Source: Falciphora oryzae
Lineage: Eukaryota; Ascomycota; Sordariomycetes; Magnaporthales; Magnaporthaceae
Assembly: GCA_000733355.1 (NCBI GenBank)
Contig: JNVV01000040.1
Coordinates: 340,836 to 354,293 of the forward strand
Reading direction: 5' to 3'
Length of the DNA: 13,458 bases
The notes under the pieces were generated by a model. The model was not told the DNA's origin. It made no database searches and worked only from the letters and a program-made list of their open reading frames with translations. This document shows, piece after piece, positions 1 to 13,458 of the stretch. The position numbers were made by a program, and so were the translations under genes. Position 1 is the first letter of the stretch, and each line of letters starts with the position of its first letter.

Positions 1-695
1 TCAACGCACAAAATGGTGGCCGCTACGGCACCGCTCTCCAAGCCGCTTCAGTGGGAGGCCACACGGACATTGTGCAACTACTGCTGGACAAAGGAGCCGA
101 CGTCAACGCACAAGGTGGCCGCTACGCTACCGCTTTCCAAGCTGCCTTGGAAGGAGGCCACACGGACATTGTGCGATTGCTGCTGGACGCGGGAGCCGAC
201 GTCAACGCACAAAATGGTGGCCGCTACGGCACCGCTCTCCAAGCCGCTTCAGTGGGAGGCCACAAGGACATTGTGCGACTGCTGCTAAACGCGGGAGCCG
301 ACGTTAACGCAAAAGGTGGCTGCTACGTCACCGCTCTCTATGCTGCTTTGGAAGGAAGCCATACGGACATTGTGCGACTGCTGCTGGACGCGGGAGCCAA
401 CGTCGACGTACAAGGTGGTGGCCGCTACGTTACCGCTCTCCAAGCCGCTTCAGTGAGAGGCCACAAGGACGTTGTGCGACTGCTGCTGGATAAAGGAGCC
501 GACGTTAACGCATAAGGTGGTGGCCGCTACGCTACCGCTCTTTTGGAAGGAAGTCATACGGACATTATGCGATTGCTGCTGGACGCGGGAGCCAACGTCG
601 ACGCACAGGGTGGTGGCGGCTACGACACCGCTCTTTATATTGCCGTAGAGCGAGGCAATAAGGATATTGTGCAACTCCTCGAAAAAAAAGGATGC
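1..695 (+). repeat. Tandem ankyrin-coding repeats with a two-repeat higher-order unit
   Basis: Seven repeat units can be aligned on the 'gac att gtg' core at 66, 165, 267, 366, 468, 561 and 663. Spacing alternates 99/102 nt except for the 93-nt unit that carries a 9-nt deletion. Two repeat types alternate: one with A-A-S-V-x-G-H-K/T and one with A-A-L-E-G-G/S-H-T. This makes a dimeric unit of about 201 nt; bases 1-72 match 202-273 almost perfectly. Identity falls towards the 3' end, where the last unit is clearly diverged. Confidence 0.85.
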
Positions 696-2940: not shown

Positions 2941-5556
2941 ATGCTCTGCGGCGCTTGCGAGGAGATATTCTCGAGGCCGCGGGAACTCACATACGGGACC
3001 CCGTATCAATGGCGGCACACGAGATATTCGTACCGCGATGCTCTCGAGGCCGGCTGCCATCTCTGTAATCTCGTCGAGGCACACAGAATCACTGGGCCGA
3101 GGACGCGCAGATTCCCAGAAAAGTTCACCTATTGTTTCAAGGTCCTCGACGAGACATGGGCCAGAACAGGTTACGGGCCAAAATGGCTAGTTCCCCGCGA
3201 AGAAGGCGACATCGACTGCGAACAGTATTTCCAGTTGGTGAATCGAGACCCCACGTCGTACGGCTTGTCCAAGTTCCTTGCGGCCGATTCGGACGAGTTT
3301 CTGGCCAAGGGCAGGGAATTTTGGTTGCTTCTCGAGATTTACGGACCCGACGAACACCTCGTGTTGCATTTTGAGCTCGGTCGAGGTGTGTGTGCAGCGT
3401 CTTGCCCCTTTACCATACCCCTCCTCGACACCGGCTGACATGGGGCAGAGAGCGAGGCCGAGGACCTTGCCCAAGCCCGCCTCGAGCAGCAGGCGTCGAC
3501 CGGATCGCCGGAAAGCTTACGTCTCGCAAGCCATTGGCTCAACAAATGCCTACTCAATCACCCGGGGTGCGGCGTGGTCGGGGAGGCGGCCTGGCGCCCA
3601 AGCAGACTCCTTGACGTTGGCTCGCCTGACCAGCCTTGCCTTCGCCTTGCCCTGCGGCCTTCCCTGCGTGACGAAGCTCGTTACGTGGCGTTAAGCCATC
3701 GCTGGGGCGTCATCAAAGATTTTATCCTGACTTCGACAAACTTGGCAAGCTACCAAGTAGGAATACCCCAGTCCAGCCTCTCTTCAACCATACTCGATGC
3801 GATCCATGCCACCCGAGCGCTTGGCTGCCAATACCTTTGGATAGACTGCATGTGCATCGTTCAAGATGACTCCGACGACTGGCTTCGAGAATCTGCCGAG
3901 ATGTCGAAGGTGTACAAGCACGCGACCCTCACCATCACGGCGGCAAACAGCGGGTCGGCCGACGGAGGATGCTTCGTCACTCGGAACCAATACCGCGTGC
4001 GGCCGTGCAGGCTGCCCAACCCCTTCAGCCACGACTCGAAGACGCTGTTCTTCTATTTACGATCGCCGCATCTCAACGAGTCCTACCGGGGAGAGGTGCA
4101 GGAGTCCGTCTGGTACCGCCGCGGCTGGGTGTTTCAGGAGCGGACGCTGTCCCCGCGGCTGCTCATCTTCGGCAAGAGCCAGATCCTCTGGGCCTGCCAG
4201 GAGATACAGGCATCAGAGGGGTGGCCGGACGGCAAAACCAGCAAGTTCTTCATCGACAGATTCGAGAGCTTCGAGATCGAGAAAGCGCGCTTTCGGGCGT
4301 TGATGGACGGCCCGACAGACATGGATGCGATGTGGTGGGAGTTCATCCGCAACTACACGCTCGCCCAGTTAACCCACATGTCCGACCGGTTGGTCGCGCT
4401 ACAGGGATTGGTCGCGGAAATCGAACTGGCCACCAACCGGCGGCACTGCGAGGGGTTCTGGGTCTGCTCGTGGCCAGAGTCGTTAATATGGACGGCCGAG
4501 ACCCCGGTCATGCCCAGACCGATGGACTGCCGAGCCCCGACATGGTCGTGGGCATCCATCGACGGCCCCGTCAAGCCTAACGGCGGCCGATACCGCGGTC
4601 TCCCAGTGATGGAGATTACCTCGACGACTCCCGTTGCAGTCCAGTCGCTCCCACGTGGGCCTCCCGGCACCGCTCATAGCCCAAGAGCAACTTTGACAGG
4701 GCTGCGAGTTTCTGGGCAGCTCTACCTACTGGAAACAGCGCCAGGATTATCATGGAGTGCGGAATTTGGATCCGGAAGGGGCACGGCTCCGAGGATAACG
4801 CTGATGATCAAAGGCACTCCTCCAGGAGACGGGGTTGCTCCGAGCCACGAGCCTCACCAAGGAGAAAACGCTCAGATGTCACCGGGGTCGGCCACGGATA
4901 CGGATACAATAGCAGCAGCCCTCGAAAGCTTGGCTCTTGGTGATGAAGCAACCAAGGAGCGAGTCGAAAAACAGCCTGTAGGGAAAGAAATGCTGCTGGT
5001 TTCGCGCCAGCCCTACTTCCTACGCCCGCGCCCTAGTCTTGCCCGGAGATATTACCACCGGATTCGGTACAGGATATTACGGTCGTACCCCGCTCGCGGT
5101 CTCGGGCTCGGCAGGCAGCTCGGCAGGCAAGCCGTAAAGCGATGCCGTCAATGGAGAGAATACCGGCGCGATATTAGTGTCGGTTTGCGTAAGCTCATTA
5201 CCGGCAATCCCAGCTACTGCTACTTGGAGGAATTCGAGGACCGAAACAGATGGAAAATGATTCCGGCCAAGCAGCCCATGCCACCATCCCGCACCCCGGA
5301 ATCGCGCGTGGATCTGCTACCGAAGACCCGAGATCTCGACGCCGACTGCCACTTTGATTCCGTACCGCCTGCGAGCGGCACCCAGGTCTTCGTCTTGCCG
5401 ATGCTCCAGGGAGAGACGGTATCTGGCCTCCTCATCACCCCAGTGCGCAAGTCCTCGGGCATATATCAAAGGATTGGGGCTTTCGAAATGCGTCGAGGCG
5501 GATTTAAACGGCTCCAGGATGAAGAGCCGGCTGGGTCAACACTGACACTCGTCTAG
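2941..5556 (+). CDS. HET-domain protein (heterokaryon incompatibility type), two exons
   Basis: Gene model join(2941..3385, 3449..5556), 850 aa, stop TAG. The start ATG has A at -3 and opens directly onto the N-terminal C-x-x-C (3-6) and G-C-H-L-C (38-42) cysteine pairs common in this family. The HET domain follows: Y-V-A-L-S-H-R-W-G (227-235), L-W-I-D-C-M-C-I-V-Q (278-287) and R-G-W-V-F-Q-E-R-T-L-S-P-R (373-385). The C-terminal half has no named domain but ends in the frequent pattern with Y-Q-R-I-G-A-F. HET proteins trigger cell death when different fungal individuals fuse; the domain is related to TIR folds. Here it is a stand-alone HET protein with no attached NACHT or WD40. The gene looks intact once the in-frame TGA at 3436-3438 is placed in the intron. 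Its partner is unknown. Two AT-rich repeat copies flank it. Confidence 0.88.
3386..3448 (+). other. Intron of the HET gene
   Basis: Donor GTGTGT at 3386, branch point CTGAC at 3435-3439 and acceptor CAG ending at 3448; 63 nt. Its length is a multiple of three, so the frame runs through it except for a TGA that is part of the branch point. Removing it joins the two halves of an otherwise continuous HET protein with a split GAG codon. Confidence 0.8.
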
Positions 5557-5843: not shown

Positions 5844-7131
5844 GTTAATTAATTAAATAAGCCATGTCAATTCATTCTTCGTTACGCTGCGCGACACATG
5901 TATAGTTCGTCACCCGCCGGGGCCCACGAGGCGACGATGTCGAGGTCTCCCGCAGCTGAAGGGAGCAGTGCGGCTGAGGCTACTCCGCGAGACCAGCTGC
6001 AATAGCTGCAATAAGGAACCCCGCGATGGCTACAGAGCGAGTGAGTGAGTTTATTTAACGTCGGTAAAGTCGGGATCTACCAGTCCCTGCCTCCCAGGCG
6101 GCATACGACGTGGTAGCGCTACCTAAGCTTATCTACACCAGGCTATAGCGCTGCTATCAAGGCGGCTAACAAATTAAACCCGAAGGCACACGGAGGTCGG
6201 GCCGCATTCCGGCGCTCCTTGTTGGTGAGCGGGCAATCGGCAGTATGGCGTAAAAACGCCGGGGCGTTGTAAGCGCAGCGGGTGGTAGTAGTGCTATCGG
6301 CCGGTGAGTGTACCGGAAAGGGGTAAGGCCGGGTTTGGGCGGAGGGGACCTCGGGACCACCCCTGGGCCCGGCCGTGGTGTGGGGGAACAACGAGCCTAC
6401 TGTTGGTCTGGTCGCGCCACGTCCGGAGGGGTAGTGATACGTCAGGTTCAGTCGCCGTGCAAAATATGGGAACGCAGAGACACCCATCCTGGCAGAGCAA
6501 GGCGAGGCTTCGGACGAAGTCTGCAGATGAAGCTACTGCACCAACAGGCGGCCTCATTCCTTGCGCTGTTAATTGAAGATCTGCATGGCTCTGCAAATAT
6601 CGGACGATATCTACAGGATGCAGCTATCCAATGGAGCAGCTGCGCCAATCGTAAATCAGCTAAAGTGCCAAATCCGCCCTCACCCTCCATTTCCTTCTCC
6701 CTTGTCGCCAATGGTATACAGAAGTTCCATGCAGGTGCATGGTCAAGTGAGGTGGAACAAATGCCGCAAATTCTGGATTGCTTCAAAGCGGGCGGTGGCT
6801 GCAGTCCCGTGGTCCCTATCAATCACTTTCGTGCAATAAGAACAGGTGATACCACCTTTTCCCCAATAGGAACAACAGAAAGTAATGCAGAGCAACGACA
6901 AGCGTTTTCAGGATGTGGTTGGGGATGGCCAAACTCGCACAACGGAGCTGCGTGCATCGCCCCCAATAGTCGCCCGGATCTAACGCAAAGACAGATGTCT
7001 CCCACCACCCGCCAGACTTTGGTTTGACCGCGCTCTGCCTCTCCGAACAGCTGAATTCCGTGCTTTGTCGGCGTGGCAGCTTGACACGCCAGTCACAAGT
7101 ACGCGACACATCGTCCAAATGCGCCTGCCTT
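5844..7131. other. Gap without a recognised gene
   Basis: Begins AT-rich, then changes near 6040 at a GAGCGAGTGAGTGAGTTTAT stretch into a GC-rich block (about 6170-6420). A minus-strand frame of 114 codons (6487-6143) crosses this block, rich in Pro, Thr and Arg, with no family motif. The abrupt base change and the short GAGT repeats would suit an old transposon end, but nothing seen proves it. From about 6500 to 7131 the sequence is of mixed composition and is probably the upstream region of the HeLo effector gene. Confidence 0.4.
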
Positions 7132-7328
7132 CAAGCTCCCTCCAGACAGCACAGCACCCTCTCAGCCCCCCCGCAATGGCGTCCGGTGATGTTGTCAAGG
7201 ACGTTTCCCGTCTGGCCAGACTCTTCAAACAAGCTCCCTCCAAACAGCACAGCACTCCTAATCAGCCCCCCGCAATGGCGTCCGGTGATTTTGTCAAGGA
7301 CGTTTCCGGCCTGGCCAGCCTTTACAAC
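7132..7328 (+). repeat. Tandem duplication of the 5' end of the HeLo effector gene
   Basis: Copy 1 (7132-7229) and copy 2 (7230-7328) share CAAGCTCCCTCCA, the CAGCACAGCAC and CAGCCCCCC leader segments, the start codon (ATG at 7176 and 7275, 99 nt apart and in frame) and about 15 codons (M-A-S-G-D-V/F-V-K-D-V-S). A small indel in the leader is the only length difference. Confidence 0.85.
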
Positions 7329-8074
7329 AACGTCATTGACAGTTTCAAGCATGTTCAGATCGCGTCCGGCCGGAACCTCGCGACGTCCGTGCTGAAGCTG
7401 GACAACGCACAGCTGAGACTGTCAAGATGGGGCGACGCCTTGGGTCTGAGCGGCGGCCACGTTGACGAAGAGACGGCTTTGCCACCAGACGTCTGGTCCG
7501 AAACGGCCAAACGCGAGGCGGGAGAGAAGCTCGGCCAGATTCTGGAGAGTTTCAACACGGCCTGGAAGAATTCGGACAGAAGCGCTCCGGTAATCGACGA
7601 ACACAGCGGCTTGGACCTGATGACGCGGTCACTCCACGAGAAAATGCGAGAGCTTTCGGGGAAGCGGATGAACGGGGCATCCCGAACCAAGAAGCCCAAG
7701 TTTGTTCTCTCGGAGGAGCGCCTGCAGAGCTTGGTCGGCGGCATCACAGAGCGAACGAACGAGCTTGTGGCTCTTGTTCCCGCTCAAGAGGCCAAAGAGT
7801 CAGAGCTCGCTGCCCGCGAAGTGTCCGACTTCAGTGCCCCTTTCCGGGTTTTGAATCAGGCCGCAACTGGGCAGGATGACTTTTTGGTGTCAGCGCTGGA
7901 AAAGATTCTTAAGCCAGCAGTAAGTCCCGTTCATACATTCCATTGTTACGTACACCGCCGCTTACGCACCCATAGGATAATACCATGACCTTTAACACAA
8001 AAGGGAGCAGTGTCCAAAAGATGGGGCAGGATACGGGAGGGCGCTACGAAATGACAATCACGTCACGGCAGTAA
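7275..8074 (+). CDS. HeLo-domain cell-death effector with C-terminal amyloid-like motif
   Basis: Gene model join(7275..7919, 7976..8074), 247 aa. Residues 1-170 match the HeLo domain of HET-S type proteins: S-L-Y-N-N-V-I-D-S-F-K-H-V-Q (15-28), L-K-L-D-N-A-Q-L-R-L-S-R-W-G (40-53), L-G-Q-I-L-E-S-F (86-93) and K-P-K-F-V-L-S-E-E-R-L-Q-S-L-V (140-154). HeLo domains insert into membranes and kill the cell when a C-terminal prion domain folds. Here a 56-nt intron (donor GTAAGT at 7920, acceptor ATAG ending 7975) precedes a 32-residue final exon rich in Asn, Thr, Gln and Gly, with core FNTKGSSVQKMGQDTGGR. The layout equals HET-S but the motif differs. The second of two duplicated ATGs is chosen because the family start aligns there; the copy at 7176 would add 33 residues. 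Without splicing the frame ends at 7988 and lacks the motif. HeLo identity is firm; the motif's amyloid nature is inferred. Confidence 0.85.
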
Positions 8075-8470
8075 TAGGAGGGCGTTTTAAACGGTTGACA
8101 TGTTTCGTTAAACGTTGAAGGGTGCGTTATCACAGGCGTAATGGAGTGCTTCATGTCACTTACCTTTTAGTACTCCAGCCTGGACGCATGTCTTTATGTT
8201 TTCGATAATTATAACCTTGAGCTTAGGGGAGGGTCCTCGATTTGCTTTGGGTATTAGATGAAATGGGCTATCGATCTATTAGCAAATTCCACTGGCCTTG
8301 GAAATCGTTCTCTCGATTCGGCTGTGCATGTAGATGACTTTCCTCCGCCGGGCGACAACCCGCTATTCTAAATATTGCCACTCCGTCAGCTAGGTGCGTA
8401 GGTGTGTTGGATTTTCTGGAGTGGGGTGTGACGCGGATCGAGAAGACGCGAGTCTGGGAGCCATAGATGG
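7909..8470 (+). repeat. Segmental duplication, copy A (motif exon and 3' flank)
   Basis: Aligns with 9195-9762 over its whole length: the last codons of exon 1 (C-C-A-G-C-A), the intron, the motif exon, the TAATAGGAGGGC after the stop, and about 390 nt of 3' flank (shared CACAGGCGTAATGGAGTGCT, GCTTTGGGT, GACGCGGA). Divergence is low in the exon and grows in the flank. Confidence 0.85.
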
Positions 8471-9022
8471 TGTGTCACGTATCACGTGTCTGCACCGGCC
8501 ACCGTAGACGTGCATTTAGTCCCGGAAGTGTCGCGGCCCTACGTGGCTCGGCTTCCTTTAGAATCCACGCACACTTTTCCGTCACCGCACACAGATGGCA
8601 ATCTGTGGGTGTTCAGGGACTGGAGAAGTCCCTGCTATCTGCGGGCCAGGCAGCCAAGGTCTAGTCTAGGTGGGCCACATAGCCCGTGCAGTGGTGCCTG
8701 AGGCCGTCACACACAATGCGACATGCGGGGAATGATTGGTATGTAATTGAGGGTCACCAATGCACGAACCGGATCCAAATGCAATACGCCACAACCGCGC
8801 CTTCCAGCGGTGTCACCACTGCGGAAGGCGCCTCGTGCCGGAACTGATTGGTGGTTCTATCTTGGACCACCGCCGGCAAACTCTGCCGGCAGCGGCCCGA
8901 GGGCTAGACTACGAAGTGTGCGCCGCACAGACCACGGCCACACGTGACAACCAACATATACGTAAAATCGACACCTGAACAAGAAACGTGTGGATTATTG
9001 CGGCGACAGTGGCGGACACCGA
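8471..9022. other. Spacer between the two effector genes
   Basis: No recognised gene. It follows the duplicated 3' flank and would hold the promoter of the small effector. A GCCGGC-bearing inverted repeat (CCGCCGGCAAACTCTGCCGGC, near 8870-8892) could form a small hairpin; no function is assigned. Confidence 0.4.
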
Positions 9023-9365
9023 ATGACAATACCAATGTCAAACAGCAATCTTTCCCAGTCAGACATTATCGCCATCGCTGTCGGCATTCCGGGAGGTCTG
9101 GGTGGAATCATTTCTCTGTATCTTGTATTGAGGAAGTGCCGGAGATCGGAGCCTCAGCCTCCGCCACCTCCACCTCAGCCTCAGCCTCCGCAACTTCAGC
9201 CAGCAGTGAGCACGCCCATATATTCCAGTGTCGTTGTGTACACTGATTCTCACGTATTCATAGGACAATCCTATAACGACCTTCAACACCGAAAATAGCA
9301 CTGTGCAGAAGATGGGGACGGATACGGGAGGGCGCTACGAGATGACAGTCACATCACGGCAGTAA
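9023..9365 (+). CDS. Small membrane-anchor protein with the same C-terminal amyloid-like motif
   Basis: Gene model join(9023..9205, 9264..9365), 94 aa; a start at 9035 (90 aa) is equally possible. Residues 15-36 are hydrophobic and glycine-rich (IIAIAVGIPGGLGGIISLYL), followed by R-K-C-R-R, which fits a single membrane span with a basic stop-transfer end. A proline/glutamine linker follows (44-60). The 58-nt intron (donor GTGAGC at 9206, branch CTGAT at 9243-9247, acceptor ATAG at 9263) leads to a 33-residue exon, F-N-T-E-N-S-T-V-Q-K-M-G-T-D-T-G-G-R-Y-E-M-T, a paralogue of the HeLo effector's last exon. The gene therefore joins the same signalling motif to a different N-terminus and may be a second executor, a membrane anchor or a modulator. 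The motif exon and intron are well supported by the paralogue; the first exon rests on the open frame and hydrophobic pattern. Unspliced, the frame ends at 9298 without the motif. Confidence 0.7.
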
Positions 9366-9762
9366 TAGGAGGGCATTCCAGACGGTCAACATGTTTCGTT
9401 AAACGCTAAAGAGTGCGTTATCACAGGCGTAATGGAGTGCTTCATGTCACTTCATCTTCGAGTAGTCGATGCAAGTCATGTTCTCGACAGTTGTGACTTG
9501 AGCTTGGGGGAGGGTCCCCGATTTTGCTTTGGGTGGTATTAATGAAATTGGCTTGTAACCGATTACCAAGCTTGGCTCTTTCAAGGAGCCTAAGAATCGA
9601 TCTCTTGCCTTACGAAGCTGCTGTGCATGTCGAAGACCTCTTTTGGGCGACGTAACGCTAAGTCAGCATGCTGCCGTAACTGGGCGCGTGGATGTGTTGG
9701 CTTTTCTAGAGCGATCGTGACGCGGACCGAGAAGGCGCGAGCTTGTGGGGGCCACAGATAGT
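9195..9762 (+). repeat. Segmental duplication, copy B (motif exon and 3' flank)
   Basis: Partner of 7909-8470, same orientation, 1.29 kb downstream. The left breakpoint lies a few codons before the exon 1/intron junction, so the first exons of the two genes are unrelated while intron, motif exon and 3' flank are shared. Confidence 0.85.
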
Positions 9763-10918
9763 GGCAATCACATCTCCCGCCAGCAGACAACCTGGCCGGA
9801 TTTTTGCTTCAGGCCCAAAAAGCCGGTCATTGACAGCCCAGAGTGGAGGCTAGGAGCGACTCCAGACCTCAAATCCGGTGCCCCAAATTGGCCGCCTCCC
9901 GGGCTGTTCGCACGGCGCAGGCTGCACCATACTCCCGTGAATACAGATGGATGGTGAGAGCCCAACCTTGATTCCCGCGGAGGCAGAGAAATGCACAATT
10001 GCTGCGTGGACGAAAACATTGGTGCCTGTCGGAGCTCTCACTGGAATTGGAGCGGGTGATCAAGCAAGCCACGTCACATCACATCGCACCCACGGCCAAT
10101 GGATTCTACATGTTGGCTCAGGGCTGCAACAAGTAACACCGCGGTCGCGCCGGTCATTTTTCTACTGCAAAACTAAGCAGTGAGCGGCGCGAAACGCGGC
10201 AACTGATGAAATGTTCCGGACATATCTTGTCCAGTCCGACACGGCAGATCAACACAGCGTTTGGTCGCGTCGAGTCCGGAGAAACGGCACTGTTTCAGCA
10301 GCGTCTTGGTCCCATAGTCCCAATCGCGTCGACGCGAGACAGCGCACGATCACGAGCAAAGGCACGCTTGAACGTCAACGGAGTCAAGTACCGTCCACAG
10401 TGCTGTTTGCTGTGGCGGGCGTGTCAAGCCGACGTTTTGGTGTACGGCGTCTCCATGCTCCACCCAGACGATGACCGCGAGGAAAGCAAAACTGCCGACG
10501 CGTCGCAGCCCGACGACGAGGAGCTGCTGTCGTTCTTTCCCATTCTTTCACGGATTTCGTGGCAAATAAGTTGCTCGGCTGGCTTGGGCGTGACAGCTGC
10601 ACATCTACCATTGGCCGAGAACGCCGTGTGTATGCGTTCAGCTTCTGCTTCTCAGTCAGTTCACCCGCGCGTGGAAGCTTCTCCGCTTCGAAGTTCGGCG
10701 TGCACACTATCATAAACCAGTTCTCTTGGACGAATCAGAAGCGTTTACAGCGTAAGAGTGGCTGTGCCAGTATCCTGCCGCAGCTCCCTTGGCAACACAG
10801 CCTTACGTACAGCGCGTAGTTTGTCGTGGTACATCACGTCTTCTGAACCCGCGACAGAAGGTCTGCACCAAACAGGACCGTCTCAGACGCACATTGACTA
10901 CGGTGTTCAATAGCAAGC
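9763..10918. other. Gap without a recognised gene, upstream of the NLR
   Basis: Overlapping frames on both strands (for example 10206-10715 plus, 10713-10384 minus) show no family motif, no splice-supported extension and an irregular composition (Ser/Arg-rich in all frames), so none is called. The right part up to 10918 is the presumed promoter of the NLR; no clear TATA box was seen. Confidence 0.4.
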
Positions 10919-13458
10919 ATGGCTAATACCGACAATTATCACTGGAGCACCGATAAGTCTATCATAGCTATACAGGGAAATGCGCCTCACTCGTAGGAGC
11001 TTCTTTTCCTCTCCGATTGTCCTCTCTCAATTCTATGATACTTTGGACGATGCCCTCGCCTAACTCCTTATCTTAAAAACAGGCGTGTGACGCAGAATAT
11101 TTATCCTCCTGCCGAAGGTGTGTACCAAGAGATCGCGCCTATCTCTCTACGCTTTTAGCAATTCCAATCTGACGTCGAACCGTGCAACATGAAGGCCGAC
11201 AAAGCAAGGATCGCTTCCTCGACTACCTAGGAGTGACTGATCCGGACGACGTCCGGACCCGCATCCATCAGGCAAGAGGCGCCGTGCTCGAGGAGTCGTA
11301 CCGCTGGGTCCTCGACCATCCCGACTACCAACGTTGGCGCAACCACGAAGACAGCCGGCTGCTTTGGATCAAAGGCGATCCCGGCAAGGGCAAGACTATG
11401 CTGCTCAGCGGCATCATCGACCAGCGACGCCCTGCCACGACGCTCCTGTCCTTCTTCTTTTGCCAAGCTACCGACACCAAGCTCAGCAACGCTCATGCTG
11501 TCCTGCGCGGTCTGATCTACATGGTCGTGAACAAGCAGCAACCGTCGCTTCGCTCGCACGTGCGGGACAAATTCAAAGACACAGGGGAGCCGCGCTTTGG
11601 AGATGCGGAAGCATGGGCTGCATTGTGCAACATCTTTTTGAGAATCCTGAGGGATCCGGACCTGGAAAAGATCATTGTCGTCATTGATGCTCTCGACGAA
11701 TGCGTGGAGGACCAAGACAAACTTCTGAAGTTCATTCTCCACGAAGCGAATTTGCCGCGCGTTAAGTGGATCATTTCCAGCCGGAACCACATTGAGCAGC
11801 GTACACGGCTCGAACATTCGCAATCGATCCTGAGCTTGGAGTTGCAGCAGAACGAAAATTCCGTCTCTCGGGCCATCGAAGCTTACATTGCCAACAGGAC
11901 ATCGCAAATCCAATCTCTGCAAAACGACCGTTCACTGCAGGACCACGTTCGACAGGTCCTCCGCGAAAAAGCCGAAGGAACGTTCCTTTGGGTGGCTTTC
12001 GTCGTCCAGGAAGTGGAAACCGTTGAATCCTGGGAGGTGCGACAGGTGGTCGATAACGTACCAAAAGGTCTTGATGATCTGTATGCGCGGATGATAGACC
12101 AGATTGGACGGCTGGAGAGCACAGATACAGAGCACTATCGGCTAGTCCTTTCGGCGGCTACACTGGCTTACCGCCCGCTCCGGCTGCTTGAGCTAGGCGC
12201 AGTGTCCGGGCTTCCAGACGCGATTTCCGGCAACGTCGGGAACATTCAAAAAATTGTCAAAAAGAGCGGCTCCTTCCTCACAGTTCGCGACGAAGCTATC
12301 TACTTCGTGCATCAGTCTGCCAAGGACTACCTGGTAGGAAAGGCCCCAGCCATCTTCCCCTCTGGTTCTGCAGCTGCCCACCGGGCCATCTTCACGCAGT
12401 CGCTGTATGTTATGGGAAAGACGCTACGGCGCGATATATACGGCCTGCGCGCTCCTGGCACTCCTATCGACCAGGCCAAGCAACCTGAGCCAGATCCGCT
12501 AGCAGCAGCGGGTTACTCGTGTGTCTACTGGGTAGACCACCTGGAAGAGAGTATCGAGGTCGACACCCCTCCGCGAACGCCACACCTCCACCGGCGGCAT
12601 CGGTTTAGGTTTTCCCCGGGTCTCTTAAAAAAATTCCCTCTGTTTGCAAAACTCGGCGCTTTATCTCAGGTAAGCCCTTTTATAATACCCTTTTAAGCTT
12701 CTTCTAACATTATTGCAAGGGGAGAGCCGTGACATCTGGATTATGCGAAGACCTCCAGGACGGCGGCGCCGTCCATTCGTTCCTGCAAGGCCGATACCTC
12801 TACTGGCTCGAGGCACTTAGCCTTCTCCGAAGCATGACAGAGGGGATCATGTCGGTACAAAAACTCGAGCGCTTGCTACAGGTACGTTTTAGCTGCTACT
12901 TCTTTTAAATACTATCCTAACTCTACTGTAGGGGCGAGCAGGAGCATTTGGATTAAGCGATTTGGTCCGCGATGCGCACCGATTCATGCTACACCACAGA
13001 GGACCAATCGAGAACAGCCCCCTCCAGACATACGGTTCAGCACTTGTGTTTAGCCCATCCCGCAGTATCGTAAAAGAGCTATTCCAACAAGAGGTGGAAT
13101 GGATTACGACCCAGCCAGTAATGGGAGATAACTGGGACGCGCACAGCGGCGCGTGCCTGCAGACGCTCGAGGGCCACAGCGGCTGGGTCAGCTCGGTCGC
13201 GTTCTCGCACGACGGCCGCCGCATCGCTTCCGGGTCGGGCGACCGAACCGTCAAGATCTGGGACGCGGCCAGCGGCGCGTGCCTGCAGACGCTCGAGGGC
13301 CACCGCAGCTGGGTCAACTCGGTCGCGTTCTCGCACGACGGCCGCCGCATCGCTTCCGGGTCGGGCGGCCCATACGGGTCGGGCGACGGAACCGTCAAGA
13401 TCTGGGACGCGGCCAGCGGCGCGTGCCTGCAGACGCTCGAGGGCCACCGCGGCTGGGT
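10919..13458 (+). CDS. NACHT-WD40 receptor (STAND/NLR type) with N-terminal amyloid-like segment, 3' incomplete
   Basis: Proposed model join(10919..10992, 11083..11117, 11195..12669, 12720..12881, 12932..>13458). The large exon has no usable ATG before the NTPase, so upstream exons are needed; this start (A at -3, G at +4) restores the frame. Residues 5-32 form a short Asn/Ser/Ile segment resembling the effectors' motif. Then come D-R-F-L-D-Y-L-G-V-T-D-P-D-D (pre-NACHT linker), Walker A GDPGKGKT (97-104), Walker B VVIDALDE (to 205), W-I-I-S-S-R-N sensor, winged-helix region with Y-F-V-H-Q-S-A-K-D-Y-L (406-416), the Y-L-Y-W-L-E-A-L-S-L-L segment, S-A-L-V-F-S-P, and near-identical WD40 repeats to the window edge. 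Such receptors bind a ligand through the WD40 propeller, oligomerise and seed amyloid folding of a partner effector. Two candidate effectors lie upstream on the same strand. NACHT-WD40 identity is near certain; the first two exons are inferred. Confidence 0.85.
10993..11194 (+). other. Two proposed 5' introns of the NLR and the 35-nt exon between them
   Basis: Intron 1, 10993-11082: donor GTAGGA, branch CTAAC at 11060-11064, acceptor ACAG. Intron 2, 11118-11194: donor GTGTGT, branch CTGAC at 11169-11173, acceptor GAAG. Together they join an ATG-initiated 25-residue segment in frame to the NACHT exon and bypass stops at 10995-10997 and 11170-11172. The GTAGGA donor and AAG acceptor are weaker than usual. 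Confidence 0.5.
12670..12719 (+). other. NLR intron before the Y-W-L-E-A-L-S-L exon
   Basis: Donor GTAAGC, branch CTAAC at 12704-12708, acceptor CAAG; 50 nt, phase 0. Without it the frame stops at 12696; with it the expected region between NACHT and WD40 continues. Confidence 0.85.
12882..12931 (+). other. NLR intron before the WD40 exon
   Basis: Donor GTACGT, branch CTAAC at 12917-12921, acceptor GTAG; 50 nt, phase 0. Joins L-E-R-L-L-Q to G-R-A-G-A-F-G-L-S-D-L-V-R-D-A and then the WD40 repeats. Confidence 0.85.
13136..13458 (+). repeat. Near-identical WD40-coding repeats
   Basis: CTGCAGACGCTCGAGGGCCAC recurs at 13157, 13283 and 13427: one unit of 126 nt (42 residues, the normal WD40 length) and one of 144 nt, which carries an 18-nt insertion at 13367-13384. 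Outside the insertion the units differ at only a few bases (G-H-S-G-W-V-S-S versus G-H-R-S-W-V-N-S versus G-H-R-G-W; G-D-R-T versus G-D-G-T). The array continues beyond the window. Confidence 0.9.

Follow-up and report, generated by a model that had tools for sequence, protein, structure and literature searches.

A gene cluster in the ascomycete Falciphora oryzae may form an amyloid-signalling module in which a NOD-like receptor (NLR) and two neighbouring proteins are related through a short motif. The cluster lies in a stretch of 13,458 nucleotides, here called the window (contig C40, 340836-354293, within a 50.2-Mb genome of 123 contigs), and its three genes all read on the + strand within window positions 7275-13458. 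They are HeLo-1a, encoding a HeLo-domain protein; TM-1a, encoding a predicted single-pass membrane protein; and NLR-A, encoding a receptor with a NACHT domain. From sequence we put the chances at about even that this locus is an NLR-effector amyloid-signalling module. The two effector genes adjoin the NLR gene, HeLo-1a and TM-1a end in the same tail, and the NLRs nearest to NLR-A carry a homologue of that tail at their N-termini. An initial annotation, made from the sequence of the window alone, had recognized here the arrangement of genes known from HET-S/NWD2 and HELLP/SBP/PNT1, and that arrangement is indeed present.

The shared tail is encoded by a separate exon in each effector gene. HeLo-1a exon 1 (7275-7919, 215 codons) encodes the HeLo domain, which matches PF14479 (E=1.8e-18) and the solved HET-s HeLo chain 2wvn (E=9.9e-14); after an intron (7920-7975), exon 2 (7976-8074) encodes DNTMTFNTKGSSVQKMGQDTGGRYEMTITSRQ, 32 amino acids. 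TM-1a has a first exon at 9023-9205, an intron at 9206-9263 and a second exon (9264-9365) encoding DNPITTFNTENSTVQKMGTDTGGRYEMTVTSRQ, 33 amino acids. In both genes the GT-AG intron before the motif exon begins directly after P-A codons, and 23 of 28 residues of the tails are identical when counted from T-F on. The likeness exceeds the exon, reaching into the intron and some hundreds of bases of 3' flanking DNA: between 7908-8472 and 9194-9763, 434 of 595 alignment columns are identical (73%). Because the likeness at the DNA level spans 595 columns, the two tails are copies of one exon and not independent witnesses to a motif; the motif exon passed between HeLo-1a and TM-1a, or reached both from a third copy, by DNA duplication. 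The claim of a terminal exon common to two genes was correct, and the two tail-bearing genes are confirmed as a HeLo gene and a gene for a small, predicted transmembrane protein, although their tails count once. The two exons differ by six silent and five replacement changes among 29 codons, a ratio that in this small sample suggests constraint. The tail is about 27 residues long and present as a single motif copy, in which no submotifs were seen.

Both within this genome and outside it, the tail recurs on HeLo proteins. A tail-only search (E up to 10) located seven sites: two in the window, two on C9, one on C117 and two on C92; in a HeLo gene on C71 the tail has diverged further. A search for motif-only proteins gave no candidate. 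Among 28 HeLo homologues in public proteins (E up to 1), six end in the same tail and represent five other genera: two from Purpureocillium lilacinum and one each from Diplogelasinospora grovesii, Byssothecium circinans, Alternaria atra and Fusarium oxysporum. On this point the initial annotation is supported. Seventeen of the 28 have no such tail, and several of these, judged by eye, apparently read into an intron at that place. P0021, a related HeLo protein, has a PP-type tail (PF17046) in the corresponding position. The C-terminal tail of P0015, P0018, P0019 and P0022, of which TTFNNNNSKIVNQAASMAIHGGQTIN is the type, is partly similar to ours (E=0.0021 against the effector profile over 15 columns; E=0.17 against the NLR profile), which is possibly a sister motif.

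On the receptor side, a matching segment is found at NLR N-termini. Among the best 120 of the 3150 proteins found by an NLR search, 16 have near their start the pattern [QHR]-[WF]-[DE] followed about eight residues on by [VI]-Q-x-[QE]-G, and P0034 has a looser variant. Sixteen of these 17 come from named Aspergillus or Penicillium species, and P0039 is unnamed. When a hidden Markov model (HMM) of eight effector tails was used to rank 124 N-termini, the first 11 were all of this receptor type. We then compared a profile of the eight tails with one of 14 of the 17 N-termini, leaving out P0031 and P0043, whose second half is missing or diverged, and the looser P0034. The profiles matched over 24 ungapped columns with E=1.2e-4; none of 400 column shuffles did as well, and the reversed profile gave E=0.74. 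The three tails of our own genome alone matched the receptor profile in the same register (E=0.019). By comparison, a PUASM-like NLR group gave E=0.72 against the effector profile. These alignments show that the Aspergillus and Penicillium NLRs nearest to NLR-A carry an N-terminal homologue of the tail. The species with the effector tail differ from those with the matching NLRs.

NLR-A itself is a NACHT-WD40 receptor downstream of the effectors on the same strand, as had been read from the sequence. Of its predicted exons, exon 2 (11205-12669) encodes the NACHT region (NPHP3_N, E=1.5e-36; NACHT, E=6.5e-13), exon 3 spans 12720-12881, and exon 4 (12932-13458) encodes WD40-type repeats, seen by reading the translation, that run into an assembly gap. 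The candidate motif lies in exon 1 (10919-10992), which is open. Of the GT-AG splices enumerated, those from donors 10956 and 10992 to acceptor 11205 are the only ones that keep an open frame as far as the NACHT region, and only donor 10992 retains the whole exon, giving MANTDNYHWSTDKSIIAIQGNAPHS|KDRFLDYLG. With this splice residue 26 is K, so the arginine that had been aligned there with the effectors is absent. Against the receptor profile NLR-A scores E=0.0024 over 17 columns, in the register of the effector/receptor match. Against five tails from other species it gives p=0.0095 and 0.0052, and against a joint profile of effectors and Aspergillus/Penicillium NLR N-termini (NLR-A excluded) p=0.0013 and 0.0005, ranking first among 100 NLR N-termini; several profiles were tried, and these p-values carry a multiple-testing cost. 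That the NLR-A exon carries the motif, in the form of its first half, is supported, but weakly. As a side observation, a decayed copy of this exon (MANTNNYHWSTKSG, then a stop) lies on C104 at about 13.4 kb (L059), upstream of a more distant NACHT gene.

A number of results weigh against a partnership between this receptor and these effectors. Taken directly, as in the ungapped alignment that the initial annotation had proposed, NLR-A does not align with the tails above chance: its best score against four own-genome tails has p=0.34 by 2000 shuffles and 0.24 by 6000 protein windows, and against ten tails 0.27 and 0.17, respectively. We accordingly dropped the window alone as direct proof of homology. 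NLR-A gives E=0.059 against the effector profile and just E=29 in the effector HMM scan, and it matches the first half of the motif without the second. The receptor hits in that scan are singly weak (E from 0.086 at best to 9.6, the best reversed control being E=14). The effector/receptor profile match has an hhalign probability of 55%; an earlier version built from 16 rows reached E=2.9e-4 and 41%, with none of 60 shuffles as good, and removal of the Fusarium tail lowers the match to E=0.0056 in the same register. Singly, one of five tails scores well against the receptor profile, that of Fusarium (p=0.0003 and 0.0005), and those of HeLo-1a, TM-1a, HeLo-2 (a second HeLo type, described below) and Purpureocillium give p=0.09-0.56.

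These results leave room for a different explanation, in which the tail is a conserved amyloid or oligomerization motif of HeLo proteins, NLR-A is unrelated to it, and the neighbourhood is a coincidence within a cluster of incompatibility-type genes. We regard this as possible, if somewhat unlikely. A HET-domain gene and other incompatibility-type genes do lie nearby, and the comparison of NLR-A with its own effectors is not significant. Moreover, the genome contains HeLo-2 genes on C117, C92 and C71, and the receptor that adjoins HeLo-2 on C117 and a HeLo-2 remnant on C9, NLR-B, has a different N-terminal segment that does not match the effector tails in register. A further NLR on C12 (L058, 12801-14000) has a NACHT domain 91% identical to a query built from this group, yet its N-terminus is long and different, a sign that N-termini have been exchanged within the group. 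Because NLR-B beside HeLo-2 and the C12 copy have other N-termini, lying side by side is not enough to identify partners here. Against a chance neighbourhood, the NLRs nearest to NLR-A carry the tail homologue and NLR-A matches them in the same register; a receptor-effector module is the reading that we favour.

Several observations on these related loci stand on their own. The NLR-B N-terminal exon reads HY[ED][IV]RATTMHAGPS on C117 (L017) and on C9 (L012, NLR from about 1184011), and the C117 gene is free of N. It matches Chaetomium globosum CHGG_08852, FDIQAPVQHAGPAYN, with E=3.8e-7, which makes this segment a candidate second NLR N-terminal motif; a search of this genome found no other copy of it. 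We considered co-variation between HeLo-2 and NLR-B (ATVMKMG against ATTMHAG) and rejected it, as it is at chance level with the own tails (p=0.16-0.32). With tails of other species NLR-B ranks 3-4 of 100 (p=0.02-0.08, E=0.04), in a differing register on the HYEIR/RYEM stretch. One HeLo-2 copy on C9 (L042, 1182644-1182850) lacks its middle, the start of the domain being joined to the end of the tail, and the C71 HeLo-2 (L035, 69736-70359) continues beyond the motif into a second, degenerate motif-like exon. C9 also holds a close copy of the window cluster, with a frameshift near the end of HeLo exon 1. This paralogue was dropped as independent support because the copies are too alike (NLR-A intron 1 98.6% and HeLo exon 1 95.7% identical).

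If the locus is a receptor-effector module, its working can be outlined by analogy. Ligand-driven clustering of NLR-A, as in HET-S/NWD2 (PMC5485727, PMC9815663), would bring its N-terminal segments together; the clustered segments would fold into an amyloid seed; and that seed would template the tails of HeLo-1a and TM-1a, with cell death as the output inferred from HET-S/NWD2. How the two effectors might divide this task is suggested by their N-terminal regions. We aligned exon 1 of HeLo-1a with 24 of the 28 homologues, leaving out a near-duplicate (P0016) and three partial sequences (P0025, P0027 and P0028). Residues 5, 8 and 9 of HeLo-1a are D, K and D, where none of the 24 relatives has a charge, and its N-terminal segment has a two-residue deletion where none of them has a gap. 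The mean hydropathy of residues 1-22 is 0.32 in HeLo-1a versus 1.34-1.40 in the six tail-bearing relatives, with the HeLo-2 proteins intermediate (0.92-1.02). HeLo-1a appears to lack the hydrophobic N-terminal helix of a pore-forming HeLo effector of the HET-S type, and the C9 HeLo copy has the same N-terminal changes. When HeLo-1a is aligned to 2wvn, the two absent residues directly precede G-R-D, whose G is numbered 35 in PMC3531502; by count, they would be residues 33 and 34. The toxicity of HET-S is described as depending on its predicted N-terminal membrane helix and on residue 33 (PMC3531502, PMC7885112). Because of this published dependence and its own charged and shortened N-terminus, HeLo-1a is predicted not to permeabilize membranes and to be HET-s-like, that is, non-lytic. 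HeLo-1a does have its HeLo domain, although its membrane helix looks defective. This feature, the origin of both tails in one DNA duplication and the predicted single membrane pass of TM-1a had all escaped the initial annotation. The true N-terminus of HeLo-1a is uncertain because an in-frame 99-bp duplication of the leader and start (7176-7274) adds an ATG at 7176; a further in-frame ATG lies at 7119.

TM-1a could supply what HeLo-1a appears to lack. It has one hydrophobic stretch, with a hydropathy of 1.98 over 19 residues from residue 18, followed in order by RKCRR, a Pro/Gln-rich linker and the motif, and it is predicted to be a single-pass membrane protein. By the positive-inside rule, its motif would be placed on the cytosolic side. 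The N-terminal part was found in only two copies in this genome, in the window and on C9. Among the records listed by literature searches there was no fungal protein that combines a single membrane span with a motif of this sort, and the word transmembrane does not occur in the main texts of PMC9815663 and PMC12261475. In the proposed module, HeLo-1a, predicted to insert poorly into membranes, would not kill but serve to carry the fold or pass it on, and TM-1a would bring the polymer to the membrane.

This division of roles permits a bolder interpretation, namely that a HET-s-like state has arisen here naturally for a second time, in a module with its own motif family, a non-lytic HeLo protein as carrier of the fold and, as the output, a membrane protein that captured the motif exon by duplication. 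We consider this interpretation unlikely on present indications. Were it true, receptor, prion carrier and membrane anchor would be three proteins linked by the motif only.

It is useful to contrast this locus with the known amyloid-signalling systems, since the motif might belong, in diverged form, to a family already known (PP/RHIM, sigma, HRAM or an unnamed NLR motif of PMC9815663) and the system be an ordinary one. Fungal motif families have been counted as three to five (PMC5485727, PMC12261475), and further NLR motifs such as NLR34 are listed in PMC9815663, whose text prints no consensus for them; the receptor-side motif may be one of these. The placement of a PP-type tail in P0021, equivalent in position and aligning in the same register, would also suit this explanation. 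The Pfam models, however, gave no match for nine of ten segments (own, Fusarium and Purpureocillium tails and NLR segments), the tenth being a PP control that matched Ses_B (PF17046, 7e-07); the models for the HET-s motif and NACHT_sigma (PF17106) matched none of the segments tested. The resemblance to RHIM suggested by the initial annotation was likewise undetected: the locus does not fit the PP/RHIM-like type, characterized by an NxGxQxGxN core and a PF17046 match, and the one PP tail compared gave E=0.48 with the effector profile and 0.25 with the NLR profile. The annotation's statement that the motif fits none of HET-s, sigma and PP agrees with the absence of Pfam matches. The PUASM pattern FxGxGxQxxGxGxF is absent as well, and the effectors are HeLo and TM proteins, not PNP_UDP. 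From these comparisons the motif is not placed in HRAM, PP, sigma or PUASM and could not be matched to a described family; an ordinary known system seems unlikely to us.

The architectural parallels are nonetheless close. As here, HET-S/NWD2 of Podospora anserina, with HRAM motifs, sets a HeLo effector with a C-terminal motif beside a NACHT-WD40 NLR whose N-terminal segment is short (PMC5485727); unlike the window, it has two 21-residue repeats in place of one tail copy, and our locus adds a predicted membrane-anchored protein and a charged HeLo N-terminus. The PP system HELLP/SBP/PNT1 of Chaetomium globosum likewise combines one NLR with two dissimilar proteins that have a tail in common (PMC5485727, PMC7885112), the second of these being a lipase and not, as predicted here, a membrane anchor. 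The sigma system of Nectria haematococca (Het-eN/SESA/SESB) also joins an NLR to two motif-sharing proteins (PMC5485727), but the sigma motif has a described length of about 40 residues and contains threefold submotifs. Like ours, the PUASM family and the provisional GDQN motif were put forward because they co-occur at the N-termini of NLRs and the C-termini of effectors (PMC9815663, PMC12261475); their printed consensus differs, and their effectors are PNP_UDP and SesA.

A last alternative, that the cluster is decaying and does not signal today, with the HeLo-1 membrane helix lost, the C9 copy frameshifted and TM-1 a by-product of duplication, could draw on the charged and deleted HeLo-1a N-terminus, the 99-bp start duplication, the C9 frameshift, the truncated HeLo-2 on C9 and the decayed NLR-A exon on C104, but it seems improbable to us given that HeLo-1a, TM-1a and NLR-A are open wherever they can be read and that the silent and replacement differences between the motif exons, few as they are, suggest constraint.

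A functional module at this locus would be relevant in several ways. First, a further motif family, found at the HeLo C-termini of five genera and at Aspergillus and Penicillium NLR N-termini, would widen the known set. Second, it would provide an independent receptor/effector pair for cross-seeding. Third, a motif exon common to a HeLo gene and the gene of a membrane-anchored protein would illustrate how new receptor outputs can be wired by copying one exon. Finally, the presence beside an NLR of a HeLo protein whose membrane helix is degraded would make the origin of prion alleles like HET-s testable outside Podospora; according to PMC3531502 there was, as of 2012, no sign of an incompatibility system of this kind elsewhere.

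The remainder of the window contains further coding features. An open frame on the + strand at 3439-5553 encodes a HET (heterokaryon incompatibility) domain (PF06985, E=1.8e-31), an ankyrin-repeat frame occupies the start of the window (3-512, + strand), and a HeLo remnant with internal stops lies on the minus strand at about 1497-2155. Just past position 13458, as in the C9 NLR copies, the WD40 repeats are broken by runs of N; because of these interruptions, repeat numbers are unreadable in NLR-A and in those copies.

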